Assembly (NCBI GenBank): GCA_033439255.1
Contig: CM065880.1
Location: forward strand, 124,001 to 188,000
Source of the DNA: Hericium rajendrae
Lineage: Eukaryota; Basidiomycota; Agaricomycetes; Russulales; Hericiaceae
DNA: 64,000 nt
Direction of reading: 5' to 3'
The notes under the pieces were generated by a model that worked only from the letters and a program-made list of their open reading frames with translations, was not told the origin of the DNA and searched no databases. Position numbers and translations under genes: made by a program. Below are positions 21,392-56,896 of this stretch, in pieces. How positions within the stretch are numbered: the first letter of the stretch is position 1; each line of letters begins with the position of its first letter.

Positions 21392-22213
21392 ATGTCCTTC
21401 CTCAGTCGCCTTCAAAGCCTCTGCCCCTGCACCGACAAGGCAGTCCTCACTTACATCTTCTGCGACAAGGATACAGAGATTACCATCACATCACACACAC
21501 GTGCAATGACAGATTTGGAAGAATCTATCAATATCCAGCCGGCTTCTTCCCCCAGGCCATCCTTATGCAGCACCCTCTTATCAATAAGCGCTGTATGCCC
21601 TCAAGCTGCCATGCGCAGATCATCCAGTAACAGCGCACAGGTCCTCGTCCGCGAGCTGATCAATGACCGTGCTTACTCCCCACTCTCCTTCAACCGTGAT
21701 CTCTATGATCATGTCCCAGTTCCCCCGATGTACGCTCCAGATCCCATTATTGCTGAGCGCCCTTCAGTCCTCAATCCATGGTTCATTGTCGTACGACCCA
21801 CTCCTTTCATTCATCTCGGCAAGCACATCACGCTACGCCTAGAGGAAGGCCTCACATTCCATGAGCTGCAGGGCCATGTGACTCGTCTCACACGTCTTGG
21901 CGAGACCTGGGTCCATGTCATCTTCAAACGCAATGATGGAAGTGGCAGTGAATTTAGAGAGATTGAGGTAGTCATACCACGTATCTGGTGCAACATCCCT
22001 CGCTGGTATCATCTTTTGGCCCGCCTATCTCTCATTCCCATTCACGATGCCCACGAACCCTTCGATCCTGCCAGCGACCGCCAGGTCAACGCACAGTTGC
22101 CCATCGAGATCCCAGAGCATGTGGAGCTTGCAGGAGAAAAGGAGGTGAAGCGTCATCAGCGTCTGATGAGCAAGATCCGTATCTTCACTGGCAGTGTGAA
22201 GTACGTGATTTAG
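21392..22213 (+). CDS. unknown protein, homologue of the ORF carried in the long LTRs
   Basis: A single exon of 273 codons from ATG 21392 (MSFLSRLQSLCPCTDKAVLT). I do not recognise a named domain. The C-terminal half aligns with the LTR ORFs at 25675-26442 and 39447-40214. Compare ETWVHVIF with MTWVHFWA, VVIPRIWCNIPRWY with VVPLIWSQLPWY, HDAHEPFDPASDRQ with LDLHESFDPSGDKQ, and the last residues IRIFTGSVKYVI with IGILTGRQKYRL. The short block SAVCP is also shared in the N-terminal half. Identity is roughly one third overall. The 3' flank (about 100 nt, including TATCATGCCATCC) also resembles the LTR flank, so this copy may derive from an older related LTR, or the LTR may have captured such a gene. 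The protein looks soluble, with no signal peptide or membrane segment. Confidence 0.6.
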   Translation: MSFLSRLQSLCPCTDKAVLTYIFCDKDTEITITSHTRAMTDLEESINIQPASSPRPSLCSTLLSISAVCPQAAMRRSSSNSAQVLVRELINDRAYSPLSFNRDLYDHVPVPPMYAPDPIIAERPSVLNPWFIVVRPTPFIHLGKHITLRLEEGLTFHELQGHVTRLTRLGETWVHVIFKRNDGSGSEFREIEVVIPRIWCNIPRWYHLLARLSLIPIHDAHEPFDPASDRQVNAQLPIEIPEHVELAGEKEVKRHQRLMSKIRIFTGSVKYVI

Positions 22214-24169: not shown

Positions 24170-24434
24170 TGTCGTGGCGAAAGCTGTGAAGTATGGTGTT
24201 AGGGAACACTGGTTGGGTTGGGTATTCACAGTTTCCTAGGTACTATCAGGTTTTCCACTTTCCCGGATGTATCTAGTTGTTCGGGAGGATTCTTGTTTTC
24301 TCAAATAGACTTATTTGATTCTCAATCAAAGTTGCTGTAAGGAGTGTACTGGAAGGTTAGAGGTTTGCACAATGAGAACAGAGGATAGAGAAGGAGGTGA
24401 CAGAGGGGAGGGATTGCTGATGATGACGGCAGGT

Positions 24435-24582
24435 CTACTGACGGTGACGAAGGGACTACTGACGGTGATGAAGGGACTACCGACAGTGACGAAGGGACTA
24501 CTGACGGTGACGAAGGGACTACTGATGGTGACGAAGGGACTACTGACGGTGACGAAGGGACTACTGACAGTGACAATAGTGA
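24435..24582. repeat. 21-bp tandem array in the 3' LTR (7 units)
   Basis: The unit CTACTGACGGTGACGAAGGG plus A is repeated about seven times with few changes. The 5' LTR has the same array at 38207-38354, and the solo LTR has a shorter one near 53604-53727. The ORFs that span it are by-products of a repeat length divisible by three. Confidence 0.85.
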
Positions 24583-24790
24583 CAAATAACTATTTGGCTG
24601 ATGGAGAAGCTGATTCTACAGCCATAAGCTAGTTCTGGACTTGCAAGCAGAGTGAGTCTATACTGAGACTGCACTTAAGTTGCCCTGACACAGAAAAGCA
24701 GGGAAGGAGAGAGGAGAGAGAGAGAAAGGAGATGAAAGTTGAGTTCAAGGGGTACTTTCCTAAATTGCCTTTTACAGAACAGAGTCCAAA

Positions 24791-24800
24791 TCCTTATATA
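24791..24800 (-). promoter_or_regulatory. TATA box in the 3' LTR
   Basis: The minus strand reads TATATAAGGA next to the palindrome CCCCTAGGGG. About 60-100 nt downstream on the minus strand lies a pyrimidine-rich tract (TTTCTCTCTCTCTCC), a common start-site context in basidiomycetes. It probably marks the U3/R border. The equivalent positions are 38563-38572 and 53376-53385. Confidence 0.55.
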
Positions 24801-25674
24801 CCCCTAGGGGTTGTGGGAAAGACCTGCTTAATATGTACATGACTATCTACTGCTGTGCTAAATTAACTAAGGCTGTACTACTAATATACAATTCTGAATT
24901 TAATAAGTTACTTTCTATTCACTTTTTTAAGGCTGTTCTGCTTATAAATCTGCTTGCTGTGCTTCTATTAATACACTTTCAGGCTTACCAATGCCTTCAG
25001 TAGTATTTTCCCTATTTATCCTGAATTATCCATTGAGATGTGCATTGCTTTTAGGGCTGTGCATTCTAATGAGGCTATGCTGGGCTGTGCTTGCATGGCA
25101 TCAGGGCTGTGTCTGCATTGCATTGCTTCATAGCCCTTAATGTGGGTGAGGCTGTGACAAAATATCTCCAGGGAATAAGTTGAGATTTTCCCTTAAATAA
25201 ATATTTTCTCCAGGTCACTCCAGTCAGGCCATCAAGTATAAGCATAACAGGCTACATCGAATATTCTATACCAAGCTCTGCATGATGTATAGTATGTGCG
25301 TGCAAATCATAGCCAAAGTATCATAGTAGTAAGTTCGTGGATGCGAGGTAAGGGAGATGCGAACACTTGTAAACTATCTGTATCTGTCAACAAGGTGGCA
25401 TAGACCGAACATGGGCAAAGACGAATGAAATGGAATTTAAGTGTGCAGAGGGAGGAAATAGCTTGCGCACGAAGATCGACGAGTTGGGAAGGAGAGTGGG
25501 GATGATGGCATGATACGATGGTGATGCGACAGAGATACGACAAACGAGCGACAACGATGTGATAGCAAGGGAGAGGTCATAAGGGCATAATGCGAATGAA
25601 GGAAAAAGAGTCCATGTCCCCACACACCTAACGAGCATGCTTCACATTCCCGGTGAAGCTGCTAATCCTATTCT

Positions 25675-26442
25675 TCAGAGACGATACTTCTGTCTTCCCG
25701 TTAAAATCCCAATCTTGGAAGCCCAACGGCGTAGCTCGAGTATCTTCTCGTAATCCTCGGGATCGACATGGGCAGGAAGATCGAACTGACAACCGTAGAT
25801 CTGCTTGTCACCCGATGGATCGAAGGACTCATGAAGATCGAGGATGGAGCGGCGAAGGAAGAAGGAGGTGATGGGACAGTACCAAGGCAGTTGGCTCCAG
25901 ATGAGCGGAACGACGAGCTGTATGTTCTTCAACTCATGATCGAAGGCATCCTCACGTTCTGCCCAGAAATGAACCCAGGTCATCCCAACATGGTGGATGC
26001 CGCTGATACGGGCACGTGCAATCAGGGTTCCTTCTGGGTGCTTGAGCACCAGCTCGATGAGGAGCCCCTTACAGACTAGGAATGGAGGGCGTTGAGTAAC
26101 GAACCAGTTCGTCGAATAGGCTGGATAGTAAGCGTCCACCGGCAAGTGCCTGTATAGGGTGGGAAAGGAGAATTCGTCCTTGTCGTCGAGGTCGTTGATA
26201 ATTTGGAGGGGAGATGAGGGACGAGGGGATGGGGTGTGAGGGGGGAGGGCATGTTCATCCAGTGGGACTGTGTTGCCCAACTGCTGCCACGAGGCTGGGC
26301 ACACAGCGCTGACAGAGGCATCACGTGTATATTCTCGTGTCACCCGAACCTCTGCTGGTTTTTCGTCAAAGACATGGCCAAGTAGCGGGGAGTATGTGTG
26401 AGGATTGAGGGAGGAGCGGCAGGGACGAAGGCAGCTGAACAT
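25675..26442 (-). CDS. LTR-borne ORF, 255 codons (3' LTR copy)
   Basis: An ORF in the sense direction of the element, lying wholly in the LTR upstream of the TATA box, so in U3. It starts MFSCLRPCRSSLNPHTYSPL and ends GRQKYRL. The middle has YYPAYSTNWFVTQRPPFLV, then MTWVHFWAEREDAFDHELKN and LDLHESFDPSGDKQIYG. No known domain is recognised, and there is no signal peptide or membrane helix. It is homologous to the free-standing gene at 21392-22213. A gene in U3 would be included near the 3' end of the genomic RNA; mouse mammary tumour virus sag occupies the same relative place, but no sequence relation is implied. Confidence 0.65.
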   Translation of the reverse strand: MFSCLRPCRSSLNPHTYSPLLGHVFDEKPAEVRVTREYTRDASVSAVCPASWQQLGNTVPLDEHALPPHTPSPRPSSPLQIINDLDDKDEFSFPTLYRHLPVDAYYPAYSTNWFVTQRPPFLVCKGLLIELVLKHPEGTLIARARISGIHHVGMTWVHFWAEREDAFDHELKNIQLVVPLIWSQLPWYCPITSFFLRRSILDLHESFDPSGDKQIYGCQFDLPAHVDPEDYEKILELRRWASKIGILTGRQKYRL

Positions 26443-26751
26443 GGTTGTGGCAAGGGTGCTACTTTGGCGAGCGTTCTTCTAATATTGCTCTCGCTTCCAG
26501 TTTTCGTAAGTGTTTTTCCCTGGATCTCAGATTGAGCGCCTATGGTAAGTTAATGGCAATCAGATTCTCAGACTTGTGCCGAGACCTGTACTCAATATCA
26601 TATTCACTCTCAATGTAACAGCGCATGGGATGTCAAAACGGGTCTGCTGCTAGATATATCATGTCATTGTCCAAACCGAGTTTGGGCACGACATCCGCGG
26701 GGAACTTGAAATCAACCGTCCTCGGTTGCAATGTACTTTTGGGCTTGGCTG

Positions 26752-29700
26752 CTATATCCTGTAACCATCTAGGTCATATGGCTTGCATCGAATTGTCTGG
26801 GCTAACTTTTTGAGCATCTTTTCATCACGGGCGATAAACGGAATAAGCCGAGAGGCTGCTGAAGCATCTCGTAGATAGATTCCACATAGTTCCTTTAGAA
26901 CGTATGATCCACCTTTAGTCCGTCTATCAACTTCAAAGGGTCCAAGATAGCGAGGCTTGGTCTTGTTGTTTAGGCTGTTTTCAATCATGGAATTTCTCAT
27001 GAGAACAAGGTCTCCTGGTTGAAATTCATTCTTCTGTAGTCTAAACTTAAATTTGGCTTCAAAGTCAGCATTAGATTTGACTCTATACTGATTGAGACGG
27101 GCTGCAGCATGCTCGAGATCTTCTTCTCTTTTTTCAAGTTGGCACATCCTAAGGGTGAGCAAGTCTTCTGGGCTCATACCAGAGTGGAATCCTTCTACTA
27201 AGAATGTGGCTTCTGTGAGATCAAATGGGAGAACTGGGTGTACACTATGAAGCAGATAATATGGGGAGAATCCTGTCACTTGACTTGTTGTGATCTTGTC
27301 AGCAAAGAAAGCTTCGTGGACCTTTGTTGGCCACAAGCTAAGACGGTGCTCACAGGATTTGACGATTGCTTCTCTGATTATGAAGTGGCCTCTTTCGACC
27401 ACCCCATTGGCTTTGGAGTTGTATGGAGAGATAGGGATTTGGGGGATACCAAGACGTTCCATTAGCAATTGGAATCCAGCCTTTACTTCTGGACCATTGT
27501 CAGTGGTGACTTGGCCTATGGCTCCATACCTACAGTATATTTGTTCCCAGAAGAAATCTGACAGAGCTTTAGTGGATGCTCTAGTAAGGGCTCGACCTTC
27601 GGAGGCATGTGATAAATCATCTCTTGCGGCGACAATAAATTTGTAGCCTGAAGTCTTTGGCATGTACATTATGTCAATGTATACTTTGATCCAAATTGTT
27701 GAAGGAGTTGACATGATTAGTGGAACCTCGGTTCTCTTGGTGCTTCGTATTTGACATTGATAGCAGGAGGCAACATGATGCTTGATGTCAGCACGCATAT
27801 ATGGCCAGAAAAATCTAACTCGAAGGGTTTCGAATGTTGCAATTTCACCTCTGTGACCTAACTTATCATGAGCTTCCATCATCAAGGAGGCTCTCTGTTC
27901 TTGTTGGAATATAACTTTGAGAGGAGATTGATTTCCATTGCGTTTGAAGAGAGTTCCACCTTTAGTGAAGAAATGAGAGACTTTGCGAAGAAACCTTTTC
28001 TGCTTTTGGATTGAAGTTAACCCAGATGGGTATTGGAGAGTGTTGAGAAAGTTAAAGATGTCTAAAAGTGTTTGATCTTGTGATGAGATTGATATGGCCA
28101 TTACGGATGGTAGTGTTGCAATGTTATAGGGTGCTGGGGTGTTGCTTTGCTCATTGATGGAATCTGGGACTCTTCCCAAATACAGTGCAATTTTATCAAG
28201 CCATTCATCATTGTCAAGTTCCATATTTTCGCAGTTATTAGGTCTGTGGCGTGAGAGACCATCGGGTCCCTTATGCTTGTCAGCTGGAACATGAACTAGT
28301 GTGAAGTCATACATGAGAATACCTTGAATCCATCTGTTAATAGCTGCATTGGGCTGAATGTCTGGAGAGTTAAGCATGCCTCTGATATACTTGGCATCAA
28401 CTTCCACATAGAAATTAGTCAGTCCTACAATGAATAGGCTGTAATGTCTAAGGGCTCGATAGAGTCCAAATAGTTCTAGCTTAGGTTGAGAATATCGGGA
28501 TTCTACCTCTGACATTGGTAGTGATCCATAGCGTGCTGGGCGTCTTCAACCTTCATCATCTAGCTGTGAGAGGATAAATCCTACAGCAATGTAACTAGAG
28601 TCAACTGAAAGAATTACTGGGTTATTGGAATGGTAATTGATTGGACGGAGTGCAGGTGCTGATGTAACTAATTTCTTGAGTTCATTGAATGCATCTTGCC
28701 TTCGGTTATCCCAGTCAAATTCATGGTCATGTCTGATCAGCTCAGTAAGTGGCCTTGCAATCTGAGAGTAATTAGGAATCCAGATTCGAACTGTGCCACA
28801 AAGTCCTAGGAAGCCTCTGACTTCTGTAATGCTTGTTAGAGGTGGCCAGGCTAGGATCTTTTCCACTTTCTTATCATCTGGTATCCTTCCAGAAGGTGTA
28901 CACTTCTGTCCAACTATGAGGACTTCTGGTCTTGCTATTTGAGCTTTGCTTGGAGAGAAAGTGCCACCGGCATGCTTGACACGGTGCATGATTCGATTTA
29001 CATCTTGTGCATGTTCCCAAATAAATTTACGGATTCCAGGGTTCTCTTCAAGAACTGCTGGGTTACCATCTTGATCTGGATATGTTGATGGGGGTCCTCT
29101 GACTCCTAAGTCATCAATGAATATATTGGCCTTTTCTGGAATTTCTGGTTGGAGGATGAAGGCCATGCAGTTCTGGAATTCAGCTGGAGAGTTAGTGAAT
29201 CCCATGGGCATAGAGGTGATTCTTAAAAGTCCTAAGGGTGTCCTGAATGCTGTAAGATCTCTGCTTGCAGGATCAACCTTGCGCGCATCAAACCCCCAGA
29301 ATAAATCAAATACTGTGCTGCATGCACGTCCAGCAAAAGGTTCGACAAAATCATCTAAAATGGGAGGGAGGCCTGCATCTTTGATTGTAACTTTGTTGAG
29401 AGGCTGAAGGTCATGGACTATCCGGATCTTGCCATTTTTCTTGAGGACTACAAACCAACTTGAGCAGTAAGCAGATTGACTTGGTTCATAGACTCCAGCT
29501 GCAATTTTATCCTTGATGAGTTTCAAGACTTCATCCTTGATACCTGGAGGGATAGGAATATTTTTAGAGACCCATGGAGTATGTGGAACTGTTGGTATTA
29601 TGTATGGCGAGAAGTATGATTCCTTGAGAGTTCTCCTTTCAGTTTCAGTGAAAGCTAAGGCTTCTCGATGTAGACACATGATATGCTGAAATAATTTTTC

Positions 29701-29934
29701 TTCTTCAGGCCATAAGAATCCTTCTGAATTTATTTGCAGTTCATTTAATTGTTCTGCGGTCATTCGGTCTGAGGATACGAAGGTCGGTGGTCGAGGAGTT
29801 AGTGGGGGCAAGGTATTCATGGGGTCCTCCGGAATTCTCCGAGCAACGCGCGCGTCCTCAGGAAAAGTTCCAGAGACGGGCCGGACCTTTTTGTCCACCC
29901 GTTTGTAGGCGGTAAACGTATCATAGATTTCCAT
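26752..29934 (-). CDS. pol: RT-RNase H-integrase region of the large Ty3-type element
   Basis: Reverse transcriptase has SSWFVVLKKNGKIRIVHDLQ, FDLFWGFDARK and an unusual catalytic box FIDDLG. RNase H follows (ILSVDSSYIAVGFILSQ). Integrase has the zinc module (HDKLGHRGEIATFETLR then CYQCQ) and a DDE core (YIDIMYMPKTSGY, VTTDNGPEVKAGF, GVVERG). The leader MEIYDTFTAYKRVDKKVRPV and the FIDD box are features of a basidiomycete-specific Ty3 clade. About one break is seen in this part. Confidence 0.85.
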
Positions 29935-31905
29935 ATTTACTTCGAAAGAAGTTGACCGTGTGCGTGTTTTCGAAAAAGTTTGAAGTGATTTGGTTAAGTA
30001 TTCAGAACTCTAGAATTGCTCGAAGTCGGCCTTGAGGCGGGCGTCTAGGTTAGGCGCGCGTGTTTCGACACAAAATTGGCTAAGTCGAATTATTTGGGTG
30101 CAAGTGCCGTTTCGAAGGCAGAAGCGAATGCAGGCGTCGTAGATGTTCAGGACTCAAGCACTTAGGCTTAGTGTGTAGTTGGAAAGTGATAAAATCAATA
30201 AGATTTGTGTTGAAACAGGCCGAGGACGCGAAGAAATAGGCTTGATTTCGCCTCGAGATTCTCATAGGGAGTCCGTCGTCGGGTCATGCAAGACACAAAT
30301 AACTCATATTTGTAGCTACGGGACAGAGCTACAGATACATAGGTTGGAGGTGTATCGCACTACACCTTGCCGTGCTAATGTGCCTGTTTCAAACAACGTA
30401 GATTCACGGGTGCGAGTGTCGAGCCTTGATGCGCGAAACACGTGCGTCGAGGTTGAACGAGGATGACGCGACCGGAATGGAATAGATGACGGGAAGGATG
30501 ATATATAAATATGGTCCCTGTGCAGATTCATCAGCGAACCATGCGAGGAGCAGGGCAGGTAAAGACGGAGTGGGGAGGACGTATGGTGCGTGCGCGCGAC
30601 AAAGAGCCAGCCAATCCCTCTCGTTCCTAGCTACCGAACGTCTATCGAGGTGGTGGGGTCTTGCGTAAAGGCGGGCACTGACACGTCTTGCGATGGAGGA
30701 ATAGACTGCGACTGGCGAGTGCTCGTACTCAAATTAATGAGTCATGGTGCCCAGGCAGAAATAGAAATTGTCCTTGAAAGATACCGAGAGCGCGAAGTCG
30801 AAGCTGGAATGGAGTAAATGGAAAGGAAGGTGCGCGGCGACGGCACGTGCATGGGCTGCAGCTTGACGGTGTCAGGGAAAAATCAAAATGACTCTCGAAG
30901 GCTAGGCCTGTATAAGGCACGGATGAGGTTATTGTATTATTTTCCTTTTTCTGTAAGCGTGGTTAGTTCCTCTCGTGCCTTATTGTCGTTGCATGGCGCG
31001 GGGAACTTACTTGGCTTTTCTCTGACGAGTTCTTGAATAGATATGTGGGGCGCGGGACTGGAGCGAGAGCAGGGTAGGCTGGGGAGGGATGATGCATGGC
31101 TTATGGCGTATAGGCCGGCACACATGAATTTAACGAGACACGATTCAAGAAGTCGATGGCGAGGAGGGATTTGAGACTGGACGGGGGCTACAGAAGTGGC
31201 ACCGATAGTGGGAGAAACAGATTTGTGAGCCTCTGAGCACTCGCGTCAGCGGCTCGGAGAACTCACCTGTTTCGGCCCCATGAAGGTCCTTTACTGACCC
31301 ATTCAGATATTACGAGGCGACGAGGTTGTGATTAGGGAGCTAAGAATAGAGTAAACAAGAGGAATAGAAAGCAAGAAGCATAAGCGAACGACGTGGGGTG
31401 GAGTAGGAGGCCAGGCTGGCAACACGTGTCTTGCAGGTGCTAACCAGACTCCTAACCCCAGACTAGGGTTGTGTTCAGCTCGAGCGACAAGTCGTATGTC
31501 GGAGAAGGGGGAGGAGGGAGGGACTTGTCGCAAGGGAAATGACCTGGGTTAATTTATTTACGAGTCGTGCGCATGCATGGCCAGCGACTCTCCGCGTGCG
31601 AGGCTGAGGAGGCTACCGAATTAAGTGCTATTAATTTCCCTTGATTTCACTGTAAGCGTACTTGGTTAGCGTGTGTTTCGGGGCAAGAAACAGGTATACC
31701 ATATTTTCTGGACCCTTTACTAGGTCCATGGGATCTGGCAACGAAACATCGAGAGATAAAAAGTACACCTAGAATAAAATAAAAGAGAAATGAAACGGGA
31801 TTTTGTCGATTTGTTTTTAAGAGGGGGGGCTTGACAGAGACATAGGAGGCTGGAATGCTGGGATTTTCTTCTAGATTTTCTTGAAACGGCGGAGGCGATT
31901 AGAGT
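29935..31905 (-). other. ORF-poor internal stretch of the large Ty3-type element
   Basis: About 2 kb between the protease-side and RT-side coding parts holds no ORF over about 95 codons and no motif I recognise. It may be intronic or a remnant of an inserted sequence. Confidence 0.5.
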
Positions 31906-34900
31906 CTAAGATATATCCATGGACGTGAGGAACGAGGTATGCTCGTCAAGCACGTCGAGGGTCCTTTCCTCCGCTCGGCGGAGGCGGTCCAGGTACTTGA
32001 GGTCCAACTGGGTTCCATCGAGGATTTCCAGATGGATTAACCATGCTATGAGGGGATCGTCCCCAAACTTCATGTCCAGGATTCCATCCATCGAGTCCGC
32101 GAACTCCAAACGGTCCTATGCCCAATACAGGCTGGAAAGTTCCTGCATGAAACGGACCTCCTGGGACAGGAAAAGTGAAGGCTCCGGGGGGAAAAGTCAG
32201 CGGTGCGCCGCCTTCTCGTGCAAATGGCGGACCTGGGGCGTTGCACGCGAGTGGATAGACAGAGGGACCCATGAATCCGGGAGGGTAAGCAGCAGGTCCA
32301 GTGAGGAAAGGAGATCCTCCAGGAAACAGCGGAGGCGGCGACGCCAAAAATTGTATGTTGCCAGGCTGAAATCCGCCAGGCACGGATGGCGGAATTCCTG
32401 GGCTTCCCCCAGCTGGGGAGGCATTGTTGTTTGGCTGGGCGGTGGGCTGTGTGCATGTGTTCGAGTGTGTTCGCGAAGCCGGTCCGCCGTTGGTCTTCGG
32501 CTTGCTGGAAACGGGAGCCTTGCGTCGTGGTCGGGACCAGGATCTAGATCCGGGAATAAATGACGGAGCTTTGCCGGATCGCGCAGGCGGAGCTCATCGA
32601 ACAGGTTCACGAGATACGGTATTAGGCTGAACCCCTGCGGAGGAGTCGCCTCGTCTATCTTCTGGTGAACACGTTGGTACAAGGGCGCGCCGAGGATTGA
32701 ACATAAACTCACCCTGAGCTACCGGAAGGCCGGTGGATATGTCCACTATCATCTCGCCTTCCCGACGAAAACCATCATTTCCGCTCGGAGCAGCAGAAGT
32801 TTGGTCTTGAGCAGACTGGTTTGCAGCCATCTGGGCATTATGTGCCAGTGCGCTAGCGAACGCGCGGTCCACCCTAGCCCAGAATTTGTTGGTCTTGATA
32901 AGTTCCTCAACCGTGAGGGGCTCATCGGGCACTCCATCGTCTTTGTCCCTTGAATCAGGCTTTGCGCCGTCGTGGATCTTCGTATGAGCGAAGGCGATGC
33001 CATTGGGCTTGCCCTTAGGACGAGAATCGAGGGGAGACGTGCTGGAAATGGACATGAGAGAGGGCATGGAGGAGGCAGCAGAGTCGGGGTCATCGTCGTT
33101 AACTGCAGGAGGTTGCGCGCTGCCGGGCGTAGCAAGAGCAACGGCGGGGTCGGAGATAGTCTTAGGAGGGCTCGTGTTGACTGCAAGATTCTTGAACATC
33201 GAGCCTTGCTGGAAATTGGTGAGGTTCGGGGGCGAAATGGGCTGGAAATTTGTGGGGTGCGTTGGCGGGAGTGGATCACCGATCCCAGCGAAGAGCACGC
33301 TGGGGATGGCCTGCGCGATGGGGGTCACGGGGCGATGGAAAACGGGCATCGGGGGTGGTGCAACGTCCAGCGGAATATCCGCGGCGGTGAAGGCAACCTT
33401 CTTGAGAGGGGAGCCTGCAGGCGGAAATGAAGTGAATTCAAGCCTCGGGTCGCTAAAGTATGGTGAGTGCGAGGACGTACCCATGTCGGTGTCTACGTCC
33501 ATTGCCTCGTCCTTCCTGGCGATCTTGGTCTCGATTTCCTTCTCCTGCACGCGCGTCGAGTCTGCCTTCTCTGGCCGACTCGAGTTCTCCTGCGGGTCCT
33601 CAGAGAGTGCGTACAGCTTGTCGTTGCTGAGGGTAGAGTCGCACCGTTTCTTGGCCGACGTGCTTGCGCTTGAAGCCGCGGGGATGTCCAGCAGCTCACG
33701 GTCTTCGGGCCCGAGCTTGCGCTTATTCGTGACCTTGAGCGTGTCGTCGTATTTGCCGGTGAACGAATTCGAGGTTGCGCGTGTGATGCCGGAGGAGTGA
33801 AGGATAGCGTCGGGAGGAGGTAGAGCATCAGACTGAGGTGACGAGAGACTGCGCGGGAGTGCAAATCTCTCCGACGAAGGCTGCTGGATCACTGGGAGAG
33901 ACTGAGGTCGGGGAGTAGTCGATGCGCGAGACTGCAGAGGCATTAGCGAGAAAGCCTGCACACCGTCGGGGTAGTAACATACTGTACTGTCCCTAGGTGT
34001 CTGCGGAATTGAGTTGGATTCTTGAAGCGTCGGGGTAGGTGATCGGTAACGCACAATCGTGTCGTCATGGAAGAATGGCACCATAAAATTATGTGGGGCG
34101 GGATTTGGGCGTGAGACTTGCGGGAGATGTTCGCGATCGACAAACAAGCAATAGCTGGCGCCATGACGGACATCCGGCAGACGATCGCTTCGGATTCCTA
34201 CCAGAGAGGCGTCAGGAATTACGAGCTCGCGATAGGGCACACCGGTGCCCGAGTCCTCCTGGGGCTCAAGGAATATTCCATGCCGCGATGAAAGCACAAC
34301 GTCAGCAAGCTGACCGTCATGCTCAAGAGCAGGAAGATCAGCGCAGCTATCATGTACTGCCTGGACGACAGTGCGTTCATTGCCGGCTGGTGGCCAGGAA
34401 GAGGAAGGAAGTGAATTACGGTTTTCGACGAGTGAGAACCAATCTAGCGTGTAATTATTGTACCGGTAATGCGGAGGCATGAGTTGGGAAAGGTTGATGG
34501 TCGGTTGAGGGCAATTCTGCAGGCTTTTTAAGAAAAAATGGGATTGGTATTGTTGGGGCATAACTAGATGGAGTGTGGAGGGAAATTCACTAAGTCGCAC
34601 AGGACTAGATAAGATCTCGAGGACCTCAGGGTCGATCAGGGGAGATCTTGATCTGACAGATCCTGTCGGGATGAGATCGATCATTGGGAGATCCGTCTCT
34701 GATCCCAGCTCGGCTAAGCCATACCGGGACACTGATCTCATCTGCTTCCGCTTTGTGGACTCTTGATTTATCTCTATTTTTATTAGGCTCATGCACACTC
34801 GAGTATCCTTAATTTGCGTTTCCGGTTCTGTAGGTGCGTGGTAATCTACCATGAGCTCAAAACGTGCTTTACTAACGTCCGCGGGGTCCTTGAATACGAG

Positions 34901-37852
34901 ATAAGTGCCCTCTGGCCGCTTGTCAATTGAGACGAAATTTTGACGCTGCCAGGGACGTCCTAGCAAGATTGGGAATGGGACGTTTGTCGCGACGTACAAG
35001 TCGGCTTCTGTTTGTAGGTTTCCGAGGGTCAGCGGGACGCTAGATACCAGTCCGCGGAGCTCTTCGACGTTCCCATTCGCATCTCGTACGTGAATATTTC
35101 AGTGAGTGTCGTTGGGGATCATCCCCATTGCCTGCTGCCATATCTCCTCATTCACAATGTTTAATTGTGAACCGGTATCTACTACAGCGGTAATGTAATG
35201 ATTCCCGCACCTAACCTTTATTCTTATTAGGTCTCCGTGGGGATCTCGCGCGTGGGTCAGCGTTTGTGCAACCTGCTGATAGGAGATGCCTGCGACCCCA
35301 GATCCTCGGATCTCCTCACAGAGGTGGGTGGCTTTCATCGGGTATGCGTTATCCCTTGGGTTGAGGGGCTTGTCAGGTAGGGGCTGTTCGACAAATGCGA
35401 CGGCGGCTGTCGCAGAATGCTGTGAGTACTCCATTCCTGGACGTGGCTTCAGTTTTTCTGATAACATCTGAGATAGATCTTTGGATATTCCAAAGACCTC
35501 GCCGACGCGCAGCTGCACCGGCGTGTTCAGGACGTGTGTCAGCACCTCGGCAGGTTCCACGGTGGAGGAGATCGCCGACTTGCGCGCGGTGCGTTTTGCT
35601 TCAGTTACTGGTACGTTTTCTTTGTTTTGCGGCCCTTTTGAACGCGGCTTATTTATCGGCATGGTATTCTTTGGTTGCAGGCTTTGGTCTTCGATTATCT
35701 CCTCATCATTGAGGGGATTGAACGCGGGCTTTCGCGTGTCGAATGGAATAATGGGTGGATCGGGCGCAGGTTGGTCGCTCTCTAATGGAGAGTCATCCAT
35801 CCTTTCCCTGTCTTTCCAGGAGCTTCGCGTCATCCTGCCTATTGGGTGGGTTGATCGTTCTCCAGGGATCTTCGATGCGTTAGCCTCCCGAGGCTCGGAC
35901 ATGTCGATCGCGGGTGTTTGAGCCCTTGTGTTCTTGTTTACGGGTTTTGGCGGGATCGTCGGGGCAGCGCCTCGAAGCCGTGCACGCTGTGCGGGGCTGA
36001 TCGGAGGTACGTGTACACCGTCAAACATTTGTTTCTTCCCGCGCGTGGTGGCTGACTTTCGTGCACCTTCAGGGTGCTTCCTGCTCTCGAGAGGGTAAAC
36101 TTCGTGTAGGCTGTCGTCCTCGACAGCGTACACCACGTACTGTAAGTCGTCTTCATCCTCATCCTTTTCGTGCTCATTTTCTGACATTCCGACGATGGTC
36201 ATTAAGTTGGTTGACATCGTCACTGGATCCCGAGTCAACCCCTGGTCGTGCTCAATAGCAGCGATCATGTTTTCATCGCGGAAATGGATGACTCGTCTCC
36301 CATCTCGGTACGTGATCTTTCCATCTCGATCTCTTTGAATGATCCCTTGTTCATGCAGGCTTCGCAGGCCCGGGCACATACTCATGCCATGCCCACGAGC
36401 ACCGCATCCATAACATGTCATCTCCTCCCACCGAAAGGGAGGATTCTCGGCCATGGTTGGGATTGAGTTTGTCCACCACGGCAGGGCATTCATGCTAGGG
36501 GGTGGGAGGTTCGTGCGTGGCATTGGAGGGCGTACGCCACTTTCATTGTGCGGCGGTCGCTCACGCTGGAAGATCTGCCTTGGTGGTTCATTTGGGGGCG
36601 CCGTTGGGACAAGCGTCAGGCGTTGTCGAGGGGTTGGGGCACTGACGACTGATGCTACAAATGTGTCGAGCTTCACCGCTCGATAGTATAACAGACCGTA
36701 CTCAGGATCGTCTGTACGCATCGAATTTAATTCTTGAATAAGTTCCTCTGCTTGTACTTGGTCTGAGGTTCTTGCGCGAGACCTAACCGGAGAAGGGCTT
36801 TGCCTTGCTCGAGCTGCATGAAAGCTAACTTTTGTGAGCTCAGGTTCTTCATCCTGGGCAAATTTGACTTTCTTTCCTTTTTGAAGGTCCTTGGACTTAG
36901 ATTTCTTAGAATTATATTTCTTGGGCTTGCAGATTCTCTCGTCATCTGATGATTCTGAAGAGGAATCACTGCTGTCTGATTCTCCAGACCAGTCTAAACC
37001 ATAATCTTCATCCTCATCTGAGTCTTCAAGATTCACATCAAATTTATTTCGCTGCAGAATTCCCTCTGCTATCTCATTAACTTCTGAGATGCTGAATGGG
37101 ATTGATCTGTCATGCAGGGGGTCTTTAGCATAAAGGCGGGCCTCAATTTTATTTCTGAGCCCTCGTCCAATACCTAACCAAAAGAAGGATGCTTCTTCTT
37201 CAGGGGTAAGCTTGTTGGTCTTCCGAAGCCATTCTGCAATGCTTATAAACCCTCTAGAATACTTGCGCCATGCTTTCAGATCTCCCATCTTCTTATACTT
37301 TGTAGACCTAGCATATTTTTCTAAGTCTCTCTTAATATAGCGCTTATTAAGTCGATCTGCATCGAAGTACTGAAGCAGATCCTTCTTAAGCTGTTCCCAG
37401 TCCTTGGCTCGATAGCTTTGAAGTGCCTCGATCAAGTCCGCGACCTTATGTGAGCAGTACTACGTAATGTGTTCACATTTAAGTGATGCAGTAAATACTC
37501 GATTCTGATGACATAAGGTCTCGTAGGTTCTGATAAAGCACTCGACCTGATCATACTCCCCCTTAAATTTAATGGGAGCATCTCTGGTACCAGGCAAGGG
37601 CATAGTGAGAGCTGACAAATATGAGTTAATTGTGGGAGGTGGCATTTGAGGAATTGGTGCTGGCTGAGAGAGTGTCGGGAATCTAAATTGAGGTGGTGGA
37701 GTTGTACTAAAATGTTCTGAGAGGGGTGACAATACTGAGGGATGCCTTGGTGATGATAATGACCAAGCTTCTGTTGGAGAAGCTGGAGGAGGTGATGTTC
37801 TCAGGGTTGTACTCAAAGGAGGGAGTTGTGAGTGATGAGCCTGAGCCGACAT
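31906..37852 (-). CDS. gag: gag-protease region and long unassigned tail of the large Ty3-type element
   Basis: In order on the minus strand: a proline/serine-rich gag N-terminus, a capsid-like part (LKAWRKYSRGFISIAEWLRK), a zinc knuckle CYGCGARGHGMSMC (CX2CX4HX4C), an aspartic protease (ITAVVDTGSQLNIVNEEIW, then FPILLGRPWQ) and a long low-complexity serine/proline segment without known domains. Several breaks are present. Confidence 0.8.
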
Positions 37853-37913
37853 GAAGGTGAGGTCGTTTAGCGTAACGGCTCAAGAGTTCAAGTCGGTTTC
37901 ACGTATGTCTGTC

Positions 37914-37939
37914 GTTCGAATCCCTCGCGGTGGGCTCCA
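37914..37939 (-). promoter_or_regulatory. tRNA-type primer-binding site of the large Ty3-type element
   Basis: Two bases inside the 5' LTR, the minus strand reads TGGAGCCCACCGCGAGGG, followed by ATTCGAAC. This is the complement of a tRNA 3' end (TTCGAATCC of the T-arm, an acceptor strand GGTGGGCT, then CCA). Complementarity seems to run through about 26 nt. The tRNA identity cannot be fixed because no matching tRNA gene is in the window. Confidence 0.7.
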
Positions 37940-37941
37940 GA

Positions 37942-40465
37942 TGTCGTGGCGAAAGCTGTGAAGTATGGTGTTAGGGAACACTGGTTGGGTTGGGTATTCA
38001 CAGTTTCCTAGGTACTATCAGGTTTTCCACTTTCCCGGATGTATCTAGTTGTTCGGGAGGATTCTTGTTTTCTCAAATAGACTTATTTGATTCTCAATCA
38101 AAGTTGCTGTAAGGAGTGTACTGGAAGGTTAGAGGTTTGCACAATGAGAACAGAGGATAGAGAAGGAGGTGACAGAGGGGAGGGATTGCTGATGATGACG
38201 GCAGGTCTACTGACGGTGACGAAGGGACTACTGACGGTGATGAAGGGACTACCGACAGTGACGAAGGGACTACTGACGGTGACGAAGGGACTACTGATGG
38301 TGACGAAGGGACTACTGACGGTGACGAAGGGACTACTGACAGTGACAATAGTGACAAATAACTATTTGGCTGATGGAGAAGCTGATTCTACAGCCATAAG
38401 CTAGTTCTGGACTTGCAAGCAGAGTGAGTCTATACTGAGACTGCACTTAAGTTGCCCTGACACAGAAAAGCAGGGAAGGAGAGAGGAGAGAGAGAGAAAG
38501 GAGATGAAAGTTGAGTTCAAGGGGTACTTTCCTAAATTGCCTTTTACAGAACAGAGTCCAAATCCTTATATACCCCTAGGGGTTGTGGGAAAGACCTGCT
38601 TAATATGTACATGACTATCTACTGCTGTGCTAAATTAACTAAGGCTGTACTACTAATATACAATTCTGAATTTAATAAGTTACTTTCTATTCACTTTTTT
38701 AAGGCTGTTCTGCTTATAAATCTGCTTGCTGTGCTTCTATTAATACACTTTCAGGCTTACCAATGCCTTCAGTAGTATTTTCCCTATTTATCCTGAATTA
38801 TCCATTGAGATGTGCATTGCTTTTAGGGCTGTGCATTCTAATGAGGCTATGCTGGGCTGTGCTTGCATGGCATCAGGGCTGTGTCTGCATTGCATTGCTT
38901 CATAGCCCTTAATGTGGGTGAGGCTGTGACAAAATATCTCCAGGGAATAAGTTGAGATTTTCCCTTAAATAAATATTTTCTCCAGGTCACTCCAGTCAGG
39001 CCATCAAGTATAAGCATAACAGGCTACATCGAATATTCTATACCAAGCTCTGCATGATGTATAGTATGTGCGTGCAAATCATAGCCAAAGTATCATAGTA
39101 GTAAGTTCGTGGATGCGAGGTAAGGGAGATGCGAACACTTGTAAACTATCTGTATCTGTCAACAAGGTGGCATAGACCGAACATGGGCAAAGACGAATGA
39201 AATGGAATTTAAGTGTGCAGAGGGAGGAAATAGCTTGCGCACGAAGATCGACGAGTTGGGAAGGAGAGTGGGGATGATGGCATGATACGATGGTGATGCG
39301 ACAGAGATACGACAAACGAGCGACAACGATGTGATAGCAAGGGAGAGGTCATAAGGGCATAATGCGAATGAAGGAAAAAGAGTCCATGTCCCCACACACC
39401 TAACGAGCATGCTTCACATTCCCGGTGAAGCTGCTAATCCTATTCTTCAGAGACGATACTTCTGTCTTCCCGTTAAAATCCCAATCTTGGAAGCCCAACG
39501 GCGTAGCTCGAGTATCTTCTCGTAATCCTCGGGATCGACATGGGCAGGAAGATCGAACTGACAACCGTAGATCTGCTTGTCACCCGATGGATCGAAGGAC
39601 TCATGAAGATCGAGGATGGAGCGGCGAAGGAAGAAGGAGGTGATGGGACGGTACCAAGGCAGTTGGCTCCAGATGAGCGGAACGACGAGCTGTATGTTCT
39701 TCAACTCATGATCGAAGGCATCCTCACGTTCTGCCCAGAAATGAACCCAGGTCATCCCAACATGGTGGATGCCGCTGATACGGGCACGTGCGATCAGGGT
39801 TCCTTCTGGGTGCTTGAGCACCAGCTCGATGAGGAGCCCCTTACAGACTAGGAATGGAGGGCGTTGAGTAACGAACCAGTTCGTCGAATAGGCTGGATAG
39901 TAAGCGTCCACCGGCAAGTGCCTGTATAGGGTGGGAAAGGAGAATTCGTCCTTGTCGTCGAGGTCGTTGATAATTTGGAGGGGAGATGAGGGACGAGGGG
40001 ATGGGGTGTGAGGGGGGAGGGCATGTTCATCCAGTGGGACTGCGTTGCCCAACTGCTGCCACGAGGCTGGGCACACAGCGCTGACAGAGGCATCACGTGT
40101 ATATTCTCGCGTCACCCGAACCTCTGCTGGTTTTTCGTCAAAGACATGGCCAAGTAGCGGGGAGTATGTGTGAGGATTGAGGGAGGAGCGGCGGGGACGA
40201 AGGCAGCTGAACATGGTTGTGGCAAGGGTGCTACTTTGGCGAGCGTTCTTCTAATATTGCTCTCGCTTCCAGTTTTCGTAAGTGTTTTTCCCTGGATCTC
40301 AGATTGAGCGCCTATGGTAAGTTAATGGCAATCAGATTCTCAGACTTGTGCCGAGACCTGTACTCAATATCATATTCACTCTCAATGTAACAGCGCATGG
40401 GATGTCAAAACGGGTCTGCTGCTAGATATATCATGTCATTGTCCAAACCGAGTTTGGGCACGACA
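37942..40465 (-). repeat. 5' LTR of the large Ty3-type element
   Basis: It matches 24170-26693 at constant offset 13772, with about five differences, and is followed by the target copy CCGA. Confidence 0.95.
39447..40214 (-). CDS. LTR-borne ORF, 255 codons (5' LTR copy)
   Basis: The same ORF as at 25675-26442, with only three residue differences that I can see. Both copies are open over full length, which fits either young age or selection. The function is unknown. Confidence 0.65.
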   Translation of the reverse strand: MFSCLRPRRSSLNPHTYSPLLGHVFDEKPAEVRVTREYTRDASVSAVCPASWQQLGNAVPLDEHALPPHTPSPRPSSPLQIINDLDDKDEFSFPTLYRHLPVDAYYPAYSTNWFVTQRPPFLVCKGLLIELVLKHPEGTLIARARISGIHHVGMTWVHFWAEREDAFDHELKNIQLVVPLIWSQLPWYRPITSFFLRRSILDLHESFDPSGDKQIYGCQFDLPAHVDPEDYEKILELRRWASKIGILTGRQKYRL

Positions 40466-51407: not shown

Positions 51408-54400
51408 TGTCGTGCCCAAACTCGGTTTGGACAATGACATGATATATCTAGCAGCAGACCCGTTTTGACATCCCATGCGCTGTTACATTGAGAGTGAGTA
51501 TGATATTGAGTACAGGTCTCGGCACAAGTCTGAGAATCTGATTGCCATTAACTTACCATAGGCGCTCAATCTGAGATCCAGGGAAAAACACTTACGAAAA
51601 CTGGAAGCGAGAGCAATATTAGAAGAACGCTCACCAAAGTAGCACCCTTGCCACAACCATGTTCAGCTGCCTTCGTCCCCGCCGCTCCTCCCTCAATCCT
51701 CACACATACTCCCCGCTACTTGGCCATGTCTTTGACGAAAAACCAGCAGAGGTTCGGGTGACGCGAGAATATACACGTGATTCCTTTCCCAATTTGGACC
51801 CCTCAGACGTGCAGCCCATTTAGCTTGTTCCAAGAATATCAATTGCCAGTGATGCCTCTGTCAGCGCTGTGTGCCCAGCCTCGTGGCAGCAGTTGGGCAA
51901 CGCAGTCCCACTGGATGAACATGCCCTCCCCCCTCGCACCCCATCCCCTCGTCCCTCATCCCCCCTCCAAATTATCAACGACCTCGCCGACAAGGACGAA
52001 TTCTCCTTTCCCACCCTATACAGGCACTTGCCGGTGGACGCTTACTATCCAGCCTATTCGACGAACTGGTTCGTTACTCAACGCCCTCCATTCCTGGTCT
52101 GTAAGGGGCTCCTCATCGAGCTGGTGCTCAAGCACCCAGAAGGAACCCTGATCGCACGTGCCCATATCAGCGGCATCCACCATGTTGGGATGACCTGGGT
52201 TCATTTCTGGGCAGAACGTGAGGATGCCTTCGATCATGAGTTGAAGAACATACAGCTCGTTGTTCTGCTTATCTGGAGCCAACTGCCTTGGTACCGTCCC
52301 ATCACCTCCTTCTTCCTTCGCCGCTCCATCCTCGATCTTCATGAGTCCTTCGATCCATCGGGTGACAAGCAGATCTACGGTCGCCAGTACGATCTTCCTG
52401 CCCATGTCGATCCCGAGGATTACGAGAAGATACTTGAGCTACGCCGTTGGGCTTCCAGGATTGGGATTTTAACGGGAAGACAGAAGTATCGTCTCTGAAG
52501 AATAGGATTAGCAGCTTCACCGGGAATGTGAAGCATGCTCATTAGGTGTGTGGGGACATGGACTCTTTTTCCTTCATTCGCATTATGCCCTTATGACCTC
52601 TCCCTTGCTATCACATCGTTGTCGCTCGTTTGTCGTATCTCTGTCGCAACACCATCGTATCATGCCATCATCCCCACTCTCCTTCCCAACTCGTCGATCT
52701 TCGTGCGCAAGCTATTTCCTCCCTCTGCACACTTAAATTCCATTTCATTCGTCTTTGCCCATGTTCGGTCTATGCCACCTTGTTGACAGATACAGATAGT
52801 TTACAAGTGTTCGCATCTCCCTTACCTCGCATCCACGAACTTACTACTATGATACTTCGGCTATGATTTGCACGCACATACTATACATCATGCAGAGCTT
52901 GGTATAGAATATTCGACGCAGCCTGTTATGCTTATACTTGATGGCCTGACTGGAGTGATCTGGAGAAAATATTTATTTAAGGGAAAATCTCAACTTATTC
53001 CCTGGAGATATTTTGTCACAGCCTCACCCACATTAAGGGCTATGAAGCAATGCAATGCAGACACAGCCCTGATGCCATGCAAGCACAGCCCAGCATAGCC
53101 TCATTAGAATGCACAGCCCTAAAAGCAATGCACATCTCAATGGATAATTCAGGATAAATAGGGAAAATACTACTGAAGGCATTGGTAAGCCTGAAAGTGT
53201 ATTAATAGAAGCACAGCAAGCAGATTTATAAGCAGAACAGCCTTAAAAAAAAAGTGAATAGAAAGTAACTTATTAAATTCAGAATTGTATATTAGTAGTA
53301 CAGCCTTAGTTAATTTAGCACAGCAGTAGATAGTCATGTACATATTAAGCAGGTCTTTCCCACCACCCCTAGGGGTATATAAGGATTTGGACTCTGTTCT
53401 GTAAAAGGCAATTCAGGAAAGTACCCCTTGAACTCAACTTTCATCTCCTTTCTCTCTCTCTCCTCTCTCCTTCCCTGCTTTTCTGTGTCAGGGCAACTTA
53501 AGTGCAGTCTCAGTATAGACTCACTCTGCTTGCAAGTCCAGAACTAGCTTATGGCTGTAGAATCAGCTTCTCCATCAGCCAAATAGTTATTTGTCACTAT
53601 TGTCACCATCAGTAGTCCCTTTGTCACCGTCAGTAGTCCCTTTGTCACCGTCAGTAGTCCCTTTGTCACCGTCAGTAGTCCCTTTGTCACCGTCAGTAGT
53701 CCCTTTGTCACCGTCAGTAGACCTGCCGTCATCATCAGCAATCCCTCCCCTCTGTCACCTCCTTCTCCATCCTCTGTTCTCATTGTGCAAACCTCTAACC
53801 TTCCAGTACACTCCTTACAGCAACTTTGATTGAGAATCAAATACATCAGGGAAATGAACAGGTCCTATATAGCTCTATAAGTCCTACATAGATTTCCTAG
53901 GGCCATAGCAACGTCAAGTTCTACATAGCCCATATAGCTGTAGTGAGATGCTATGTAGTGCTATGTAGCTTGGGTGAGTTGCTATGTAGCTCTATGATAG
54001 CTATGATAGCTTTCTAATTAGCTATCATAGAAGATTTAACTATAGAATCTATGAATGATATCTTACTGATACAAGCTATATTCAAGATACACATCTATGA
54101 ACTCTACTACAGCTATCTCAATAACTTTTATTATATAGCTTTCAAAGACTTTATAAAAGTTTACAAATTTATATGCAATTTAGATCCTCATCAAACATAG
54201 ACCACACAATTAGAATAAGAACAGCAAGAAAATAAATTCAACTATCTAATACATGAATTCAGTCTACATAAACTAAATAAACATTAAGATGCAAAGAATC
54301 TAACACAACATAATAGTTAGTAGATGAATTACAAGAGACTATGTAGAAAACTCACAGACATCACAAATAACAAAAAGTCGAAAACCTAACAAGTAACAAA

Positions 54401-55126
54401 TATTAGTTAGCAACATAACATGAAAGACAACAAGGACTTACCAGAACTATAGAAAAGCGAAAATCTATGAAGATAAGATTAAGACATTAGTGTAAGAACA
54501 TAACAATAACTAGAAAAGACTCACCAACAGTCAGAAGTTAAGAATGAAAGGATAGAGTACGAAGAACGAAGGAGCAAGGAGCAAAGAGCAAAGAGCGAAG
54601 GGCACGCGGAGAAAGACAGCGACGAAAGGGAGATGGTGGTGGTTGAAGAACAAGAGACGACGCGCGTCGCGCGAGCCTTAAATAAGAATGCCAGCGGAGC
54701 CGCAATTGTGTCCGGGCCGGGCACTGCCGGGCGCCATGACAGAGGCTAGCTGGCAGACTTCATTATATCGTCTTTGCTGCCCGGTAGTATATAGTACAAT
54801 AGCTAGAAGTGATGCTCATACAATCCCGTCTTCTGATCAATCTACATGTATCTCTTTTTTCCGTTAAATTGTACGATTTTATTTTATTTGTTGTGCCTTC
54901 ATCAATGTTAACTTCGCGCGCTCGGTGGCTGGAGCAGCGAAGTCGCGTCGCTCGTCTTATCTTTGCTCTCACTCACTCGCTAGCTACTCCCTCCTCTTCG
55001 GTTTCCTCACCCCAGCATCGCCTTTCATCGTTTCTCATCAACTTGAAGGCTGGAGGTATCTGGTGGGGGCTCAAGGGCACAAGGTAAGTAAAAAATAGCT
55101 CTATCTCGCGTTTAATGTACTAATCT

Positions 55127-55160
55127 CGAGAGTACCACTCGTCGACGAGTGGTACTCTCG
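55127..55160. repeat. 34-bp perfect palindrome
   Basis: CGAGAGTACCACTCG, then TCGA, then CGAGTGGTACTCTCG. It sits exactly where AT-rich sequence gives way to the GC-rich core. Either a strong hairpin or a binding site for a symmetric protein is possible. Confidence 0.9.
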
Positions 55161-55563
55161 GTTTCTCTGTTGCCCTCGACTCCACAAGACTCCCTTCCCC
55201 TCCGACCTTCCGCCGCCCCACTCGCGCACCGTCCGCGCCCACATTTCCGCGTCACTCGCGTGCCGACCACCCACCGACTCTGACGCCCTCGCCTGCCCGT
55301 GCGCACGGTCTACACGACTGCGCCACCGCACACACGCACATACGGGCCTCGCGAACACCGTCAGCTGCGCACACAAGCCCGCACGCGCAAGGCTACGCAC
55401 GCAACCCCGTACACACGCCCGTCAGGGCATGGGCCCGGACGTCGCGTCACGCCACACGCCCGTGGGTCGTACGCCTTGCGTCCGACTCCCGACTCGTGCC
55501 GCTTCAACAGCGCGCACGTTTCCTCCGCCTCATCCCGTCGCGAACACGGAGGACAAGGCAAAC

Positions 55564-55593
55564 TGAGCCTCGTTGCTACGGCAACGAGGCTCA
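55564..55593. repeat. hairpin: 13-bp arms, 4-nt loop
   Basis: TGAGCCTCGTTGC, loop TACG, GCAACGAGGCTCA, a perfect inverted repeat inside the GC-rich core. Confidence 0.85.
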
Positions 55594-56896
55594 TCCTTCA
55601 CGGTGCGTGTCCCTCGCCTCTCCGTCATCGTGCTCACGGCCGCCATCGGCCCCGCCAATGCACCCACCCACTCGCACGGCCCCAGCGAACCAGCCGCTTG
55701 CCATCGCCGGCCCCACCGTCCAGCAGGCCGCCGAATCGGCCCGCACACAGGTCGAGCAACCCGTGTGCAGCCAGTCACCGCGCAGCAACCCCAGCGCGGC
55801 CCCAGCGTCTCGCCGACGGCCTCCGTGCCTCCCATGCGACTCGCCGCACCTCGCACACGACCTCCACGCCTCCCGCAACGACATCCGCGTCTCCTACACG
55901 GCTGCGGCACCTCGTGCACGACTCAACGGCCCCGCGCAGCGACCGCAGGACTCGCGGAGCGCCCGCCCGGCCGCGTACCGAGCCCGCGCACGCGCGTGCG
56001 CAAATGTTTCAACATGCGGGCGCACGGTTTCACACCGCTGAGCCAGATATGGCCCCCCTGTCCCCATGCCTGCCCAGCACACGCGTGTGCATGACCATGC
56101 ACGCCTGCCCACGCGCACTGCCAGCGCACGGCTTAGAGAGCGTGCACGCGCCCGTGGACGGCCCCGTCTGCGTGCGCATGCCCTCCCGTGCATCGCGCAT
56201 GGCCCGTGCGTTACGCGCACGGCCCCGCCGTCTTGCGTGTGATTTCGCATGCCGCCCCGACACCGCGCGTCCCTGCGACAGCACGTTCGGCACCACGTCA
56301 TCGGCGTATCCCGCGTTCGTGCTGTACATTTCGACACTATGCCGCACATGCGGCGCTATGCCTTGCGCACTATCGCATGCCCATAGTATCACTGTAGTTA
56401 TTAATTAATGTAGCTACGTTGACAATGTCAACAGACATCAGCAAATTTGCCCCAATAATCATACTTAATGTACTCTAACATGGAATATACTAGATTTGAC
56501 CTTACTGTCTCTAGTGTCTACCTGAGTAGCCACAGGGCATATAGCTTCCATAGCATGCATATGGGATTATATAGTGACCATAGCTATCCCTCACAACTAC
56601 ATAGTGCTATATACCTTGTAACTACTGCTATGGAGACTATGATAGCAATCATAGCTCTATATAGATGAGAAGGGGGCTATATAAGCCATATAGTGCTATC
56701 ATAGACCATATAACCTGATACTAGGCTATGTAGATTTCCCATTTCCCTGATGTAAGTCTATTTGAGAAAACAAGAATCCTCCCGAACAACTAGATACATC
56801 CGGGAAAGTGGAAAACCTGATAGTACCTAGGAAACTGTGAATACCCAACCCAACCAGTGTTCCCTAACACCATACTTCACAGCTTTCGCCACGACA

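Follow-up and report, generated by a model that had tools for sequence, protein, structure and literature searches.

Genes that code for protein inside long terminal repeats (LTRs) are, to our knowledge, very rare. The sag gene of mouse mammary tumour virus (MMTV) is located in U3, and bel/tas of foamy viruses and nef of lentiviruses are accessory coding sequences that reach the 3' U3. The ORF3 genes of bdelloid rotifer retrotransposons are internal and follow pol, and the env-like third gene of errantiviruses and others encodes a membrane glycoprotein between pol and the 3' LTR. Fungi, as far as we know, have no T cells. The MMTV superantigen is described as encoded in an open reading frame (ORF) of the 3' LTR in a title cited in PMC11998498, and that paper calls Sag a type II membrane protein. 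Additionally, PMC5408684 reports that bdelloid LTR retrotransposons carry lineage-specific extra ORF3 genes with domains such as DEDDy and GDSL. In the open-licence literature searched, which included PMC12037069, PMC4016481, PMC3411680 and PMC1560396, no gene inside a fungal retrotransposon LTR was found.

The locus analyzed here lies in a 64,000-nucleotide stretch of Hericium rajendrae (GCA_033439255.1, contig CM065880.1, positions 124,001 to 188,000), referred to as the window. As in MMTV, a complete sense ORF is found within both LTRs, so that there are two copies per insertion and would be one per RNA, at its 3' end. The parallel with sag, drawn in a preliminary description of this DNA, holds for position; it extends neither to sequence homology, as no significant Pfam or PDB match was obtained, nor to a membrane anchor, and the element is a fungal one of Ty3 type. 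Unlike bel/tas and nef, the ORF is contained wholly in the LTR and begins 188-771 bp from the LTR edge, and unlike the env-like gene it is inside the LTR and encodes no membrane segment. With the bdelloid ORF3 genes it shares the character of a lineage-specific accessory ORF of LTR retrotransposons, whereas it has no named domain.

The element and its LTR ORF

The features of the element are as follows.

24170..40465, minus strand: Ty3-type LTR retrotransposon of about 16.3 kb, with an LTR pair and reverse transcriptase (RT), RNase H and integrase zinc-binding domains
37942..40465, minus strand: 5' LTR, 2524 bp, with TGTC...GACA ends and 99.8% identity to the 3' LTR
39447..40214, minus strand: LTR ORF, 5' LTR copy, 255 codons; of its 5 differences from the 3' copy, 3 alter an amino acid
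35099..37852, minus strand: gag-like region with two ORFs (35099-37435 and 37460-37852), the larger with DUF4100 and a weak RVP match
28546..29934, minus strand: reverse transcriptase ORF, with Pfam domain matches
26752..28515, minus strand: RNase H and integrase ORF, with Pfam domain matches
24170..26693, minus strand: 3' LTR, 2524 bp
25675..26442, minus strand: LTR ORF, 3' LTR copy, 255 codons, LTR positions 252-1019, under purifying selection among its relatives
24793..24800, minus strand: TATA box (within GGGTATATAAGG), LTR position 1894, downstream of the ORF, an order shared with five other families
24236..24276, minus strand: conserved hairpin near the LTR 3' end, a 13-pair helix in six families, taken as U5

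Both LTRs have the termini TGTCGTG...CACGACA, and the element is flanked by a target duplication of TCGG (or ATCGG) at 40466-40470 and 24166-24170. These long direct terminal repeats, with TG...CA ends and a short target duplication, are those of Ty3/Gypsy elements, as is the pol order on the minus strand, in which RVT_1, RT_RNaseH_2 and Integrase_H2C2 each score above the Pfam cut-off; rve (31.0 against a cut-off of 32.6) and RVP score below theirs. The LTR ORFs are on the same strand as RT and integrase, and the LTR pair and ORF coordinates confirm that each 2,524-bp LTR has a sense ORF of 255 codons, as had been proposed.

What had gone unrecognised is that the window ORF is a shortened deletion variant and that the gene marks a whole clade. 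It lacks 72 bp, in frame, in both LTRs, GTGAT flanking the gap on each side, and the six other intact copies of the same family have 279 codons, that is, 24 more. An intron was rejected as the cause of the 72-bp difference on the grounds that no GT...AG register is present, GTGAT is common to both ends and other families have this segment as coding sequence. Additionally, pol is split into two frames in the window copy, the RT frame having 487 amino acids compared with 1085 in the copy at C4:1046802. Because of the 24-codon deletion and the split pol, the window element itself may be non-functional.

Of the 2,524 sites compared between the two LTRs, 5 differ, all inside the ORF, and all five read as changes of CpG to TpG or CpA, three of which alter the protein; the ORF contains 44 CpG dinucleotides and the remainder of the LTR 45. 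These transitions between the paired LTRs suggest cytosine methylation of the element.

Two side observations concern the sequences nearby. The leader that follows the 5' LTR (37855-37941) contains, in antisense, about 80 bases of a tRNA-like sequence, with what we take to be box A and box B motifs. This sequence has a single other match in the genome (C4:767032-767112), where neither ARAGORN nor Rfam calls a tRNA, and three other leaders of the same family (L004, L005 and L008) retain only its two ends, the primer binding site (PBS) and a downstream block. On the minus strand at 22669-23796 there is a 375-codon ORF with no Pfam match, for which a 77% DNA match was found at C10:1608814.

The gene family, its clade and selection on the protein

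The one genome searched comprises 46.8 Mb in 19 contigs, and the family counts from it are lower bounds. A protein search with the LTR ORF returned 71 matches, and searches with diverged members revealed further groups, giving at least six LTR families with one sense ORF per LTR, named F1 (that of the window), F2, F3, F5, F6 and F7, the label F4 being unused. One LTR pair was delimited per family:

F1: LTR 2,524 bp (window); ORF 279 codons (window 255)
F2: LTR 2,776 bp; ORF 274 codons
F3: LTR 2,580 bp; ORF 267 codons
F5: LTR 2,204 bp; ORF 303 codons (382 from an upstream ATG, which places its start 534 bp from the LTR edge)
F6: LTR 2,227 bp; ORF 423 codons
F7: LTR 2,263 bp; ORF interrupted in both LTRs by a single in-frame TGA, leaving two pieces

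The delimited pairs are 99.6-99.8% identical, and other pairs compared go down to 96.7%. The ORF is thus open in five of the six families at about 23-55% protein identity to F1 (F2 53-55%, F3 48%, F5 and F6 23-25%), and the core pattern PWF..RP...G...TW.HF...RED...VPRIW can be recognised, of which one G and one W alone are invariant over 13 sequences, some of them fragments. The RT is closer to that of F1 throughout (F2 82-86%, F3 81-83%, F5-F7 70-77%), and from the RT and ORF identities across families we therefore conclude that the gene was probably present in the LTR of the ancestor of this Ty3 clade.

The distribution of the gene was analyzed around RT loci, with 92 of 347 RT candidates scored and the pieces of one RT merged. 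Loci at least 70% identical to the window RT were assigned to the clade, and an ORF was counted if it shared the strand of the RT and lay no more than 9 kb downstream or 21 kb upstream of it. Among the candidates scored, the ORF is on both sides of 24 of the 29 clade loci, on one side of five and absent from none, whereas the 57 less similar loci, with Ty3-like RTs of at most 48% identity, have it on both sides in no case and on one side in a single case, 56 having neither. Two members of a lineage with 47% RT identity were inspected, their LTRs undelimited, and no LTR ORF was recognised. Conversely, a clade RT is nearby in 56 of the 92 ORF places used, the remaining 36 being solo LTRs or pieces; this count excludes the second parts of split matches, some of the small fragments and three single-copy relatives.

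The selection on the protein was estimated from close pairs by the NG86 method. The dN/dS ratio is 0.12 for F5_C2/F5_C1 (Fisher p = 1.8e-27), 0.117 for F6/F6b (p = 6.1e-35), 0.18 (p = 7.6e-9) and 0.23 (p = 0.0058) for two F1 pairs, 0.29 (p = 0.0026) for an F3 pair and 0.52 (p = 0.11, not significant) for an F2 pair. The LTR ORF is under purifying selection in close pairs, and the test suggested in the preliminary description, whether dN/dS between copies is below 1, gave values under 0.3 in five of the six close pairs within this genome. In six of seven pairs more changes fall at the third codon position than at either of the others, the F2 pair having equal numbers at the second and third, and the other two reading frames contain stops in all seven pairs tested. 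Between F1, F2 and F3, pS of 0.62-0.80 and pN of 0.27-0.33 point in the same direction, these ratios being rough because pS is near saturation. The gene nevertheless evolves faster than integrase: between F1 and F3 its dN is 0.44 vs 0.14 and 0.33 for two integrase parts, and between F5 and F6 it is 0.95 vs 0.25.

A random mixture of open and closed copies, named in the preliminary description as a sign against a retained gene, was also looked for within this genome. Intact ORFs were found in 8 of 12 fetched copies of F1 (including the two of the window), 8 of 14 of F2 and 4 of 6 of F3, and among near-full-length matches the frame has no stop in 14 of 17 for F6 (421 or more of 423 residues) and in 8 of 9 for F5 (290 or more of 305).

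The same description had found no recognisable domain, and this is upheld: the protein has no significant Pfam match, and profile searches against PDB gave one unrelated chain at E 0.7 in one case and none in the other. The search for relatives proposed there yielded two matches, both from Hericium alpestre, which align to about two thirds of the query at 84-85% identity; a further protein search of the best 7,999 candidates by shared words gave no match, and distant relatives may be missed by such searches because they need shared 5-residue words. No relatives of the LTR ORF were found in the viral contigs searched. A derivation of the LTR ORF from gag, RT or integrase of the element itself was rejected, with hhalign probabilities of at most 1%. 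In the three proteins tested, the highest 19-residue hydropathy mean is 1.14 and there is no membrane segment, so that the LTR ORF protein looks soluble.

Position of the ORF within the LTR

In all six families a TATA box follows the ORF, 249-715 bp from the LTR end, with the sequence GGGTATATAAGG or close to it in five families and TTTGTATAAATAG in F7; F2 LTRs have seven additional TATA-like sites. Between the TATA box and the LTR end, a hairpin of 13 pairs is conserved in all six families. Pairing holds in 96.1% of its cells, five of the pairs have changes in both partners, and when one partner is slid by 1-3 columns at most 50% are paired. On two of five measures the hairpin is no better than shuffles (double-change pairs 5 vs 3.4, 83/500; further pair types 6 vs 8.9), and the F5 stretch by itself adopts another fold. 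The simplest reading of this arrangement is the order ORF, promoter, RNA start, R and U5, which would place the ORF in U3. The earlier claim that the ORF is upstream of the TATA box stands for all six families, its U3 placement being deduced from TATA box and hairpin. The hairpin, CUAGG...CCUAG, lies near the PBS and is possibly a packaging or priming signal.

At its left edge, the first 269 bp of the F1 LTR show an 80-81% match to another repeat family in all three copies read, L055 (C5:1603200), L056 (C12:2034000) and L057 (C1:4296900). L055 and L057 have an ORF of about 330-340 amino acids, presumably kinase-like.

Two further loci in the window carry relatives of the ORF.

51408..56896, plus strand: solo F1 LTR with a broken LTR ORF, split by a 2.9-kb insertion; flanks CCGG/TCGG agree at 3 of 4 positions
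21392..22210, plus strand: single-copy relative with an open frame of 273 codons, at 31-36% identity to the LTR ORF and with a 3' flank similar to the F1 LTR

The insertion in the solo LTR (53844-56755) has CATCAGGGAAATG inverted ends and a TA duplication. The ORF is left behind in a solo LTR here, as had been predicted, and, being broken, does not demonstrate that solo LTRs spread a working gene. Relatives with ORFs in single-copy DNA number three, the other two being at C5:355342-356178 and C2:4449646, the latter open from its middle only. Because about 480 bp 3' of the window ORF match the F1 LTR at 63.5%, this locus is taken as a probable LTR relic, although no TATA box or LTR ends were found in its flank. 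For the C5 and C2 relatives, which are 47% identical to each other (pN 0.36 vs pS 0.77), no LTR match was found outside the ORF, and these loci may be host genes.

Origin and role of the LTR ORF

We consider it likely that the ORF is an accessory gene of this Ty3 clade, carried in U3 of each LTR, and that it has been retained through the preferential spread of elements with a functional protein encoded in U3. The genomic RNA would carry the ORF once, at its 3' end, after integrase. LTR replication copies U3 to both ends of a new insertion, and since one U3 is the source of both, reverse transcription would give each insertion two ORF copies, identical at that moment. Translation of the protein would probably use either a short RNA initiated close to the left edge of the LTR or the 3' end of the element RNA. 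More tentatively, it is possible that this is a soluble protein that aids the element by acting on the LTR promoter or against host silencing; its fast but constrained change would fit an evolving partner, such as silencing or promoter factors.

Among the other explanations, the ORF might belong to the 5' leader (R/U5) and precede gag as an upstream cistron, with the RNA starting near the LTR left edge. The sharing of this edge with another repeat family indicates that it may have a conserved role, but the TATA box follows the ORF in six families and the hairpin is near the LTR end, which makes this reading rather improbable. A captured host gene, with the window relative and those at C5:355342 and C2:4449646 as host genes, is somewhat less unlikely: all three are in single-copy DNA, and the C5 and C2 sequences show an excess of synonymous change. 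Against it, the flank of the window relative fits a relic LTR, its lack of recognised TATA box and LTR ends notwithstanding, and a profile search including all three relatives matched only the two F1-like Hericium alpestre proteins and no ortholog.

The protein might also act on the host rather than for transposition, for instance as a factor of incompatibility or killer protection that makes it advantageous to keep the insertion. Two copies per insertion, additional copies in solo LTRs and fast protein change would agree with such an action; no domain was matched, the three proteins have no membrane segment and the solo-LTR copy of the window is broken, and we regard this as very unlikely. 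Passive carriage or chance, that is, an open frame with no function, is strongly disfavoured and extremely improbable. Broken copies do occur (4 of 12 fetched for F1, 6 of 14 for F2, 2 of 6 for F3, and seven more, diverged or partial, with stops), but five pairs have dN/dS values of 0.12-0.29, p being as low as 6e-35, and the 171 changes of the F6 pair, when randomly placed, keep the frame open in 0.4% of 1000 trials.

LTRs are commonly regarded as control regions that encode no protein, and one clade appears to have kept a fast-changing, selected gene there through a split into six families. We would suggest, as a somewhat doubtful extension of the accessory-gene reading, that a regulatory or anti-silencing gene was transferred to U3 in this clade, and that its protein is thus encoded within the very promoter repeat under its control. 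Every insertion would then be a self-contained module of promoter and regulator, as would every solo LTR before its decay, and some copies (C5, C2) have perhaps become host genes. About 90 copies and pieces are available for study in one genome, in a eukaryotic microbe in which it can be asked why and how an element encodes and expresses a U3 protein and whether solo LTRs seed host genes. Moreover, repeat annotation that masks LTRs as non-coding would conceal such genes.
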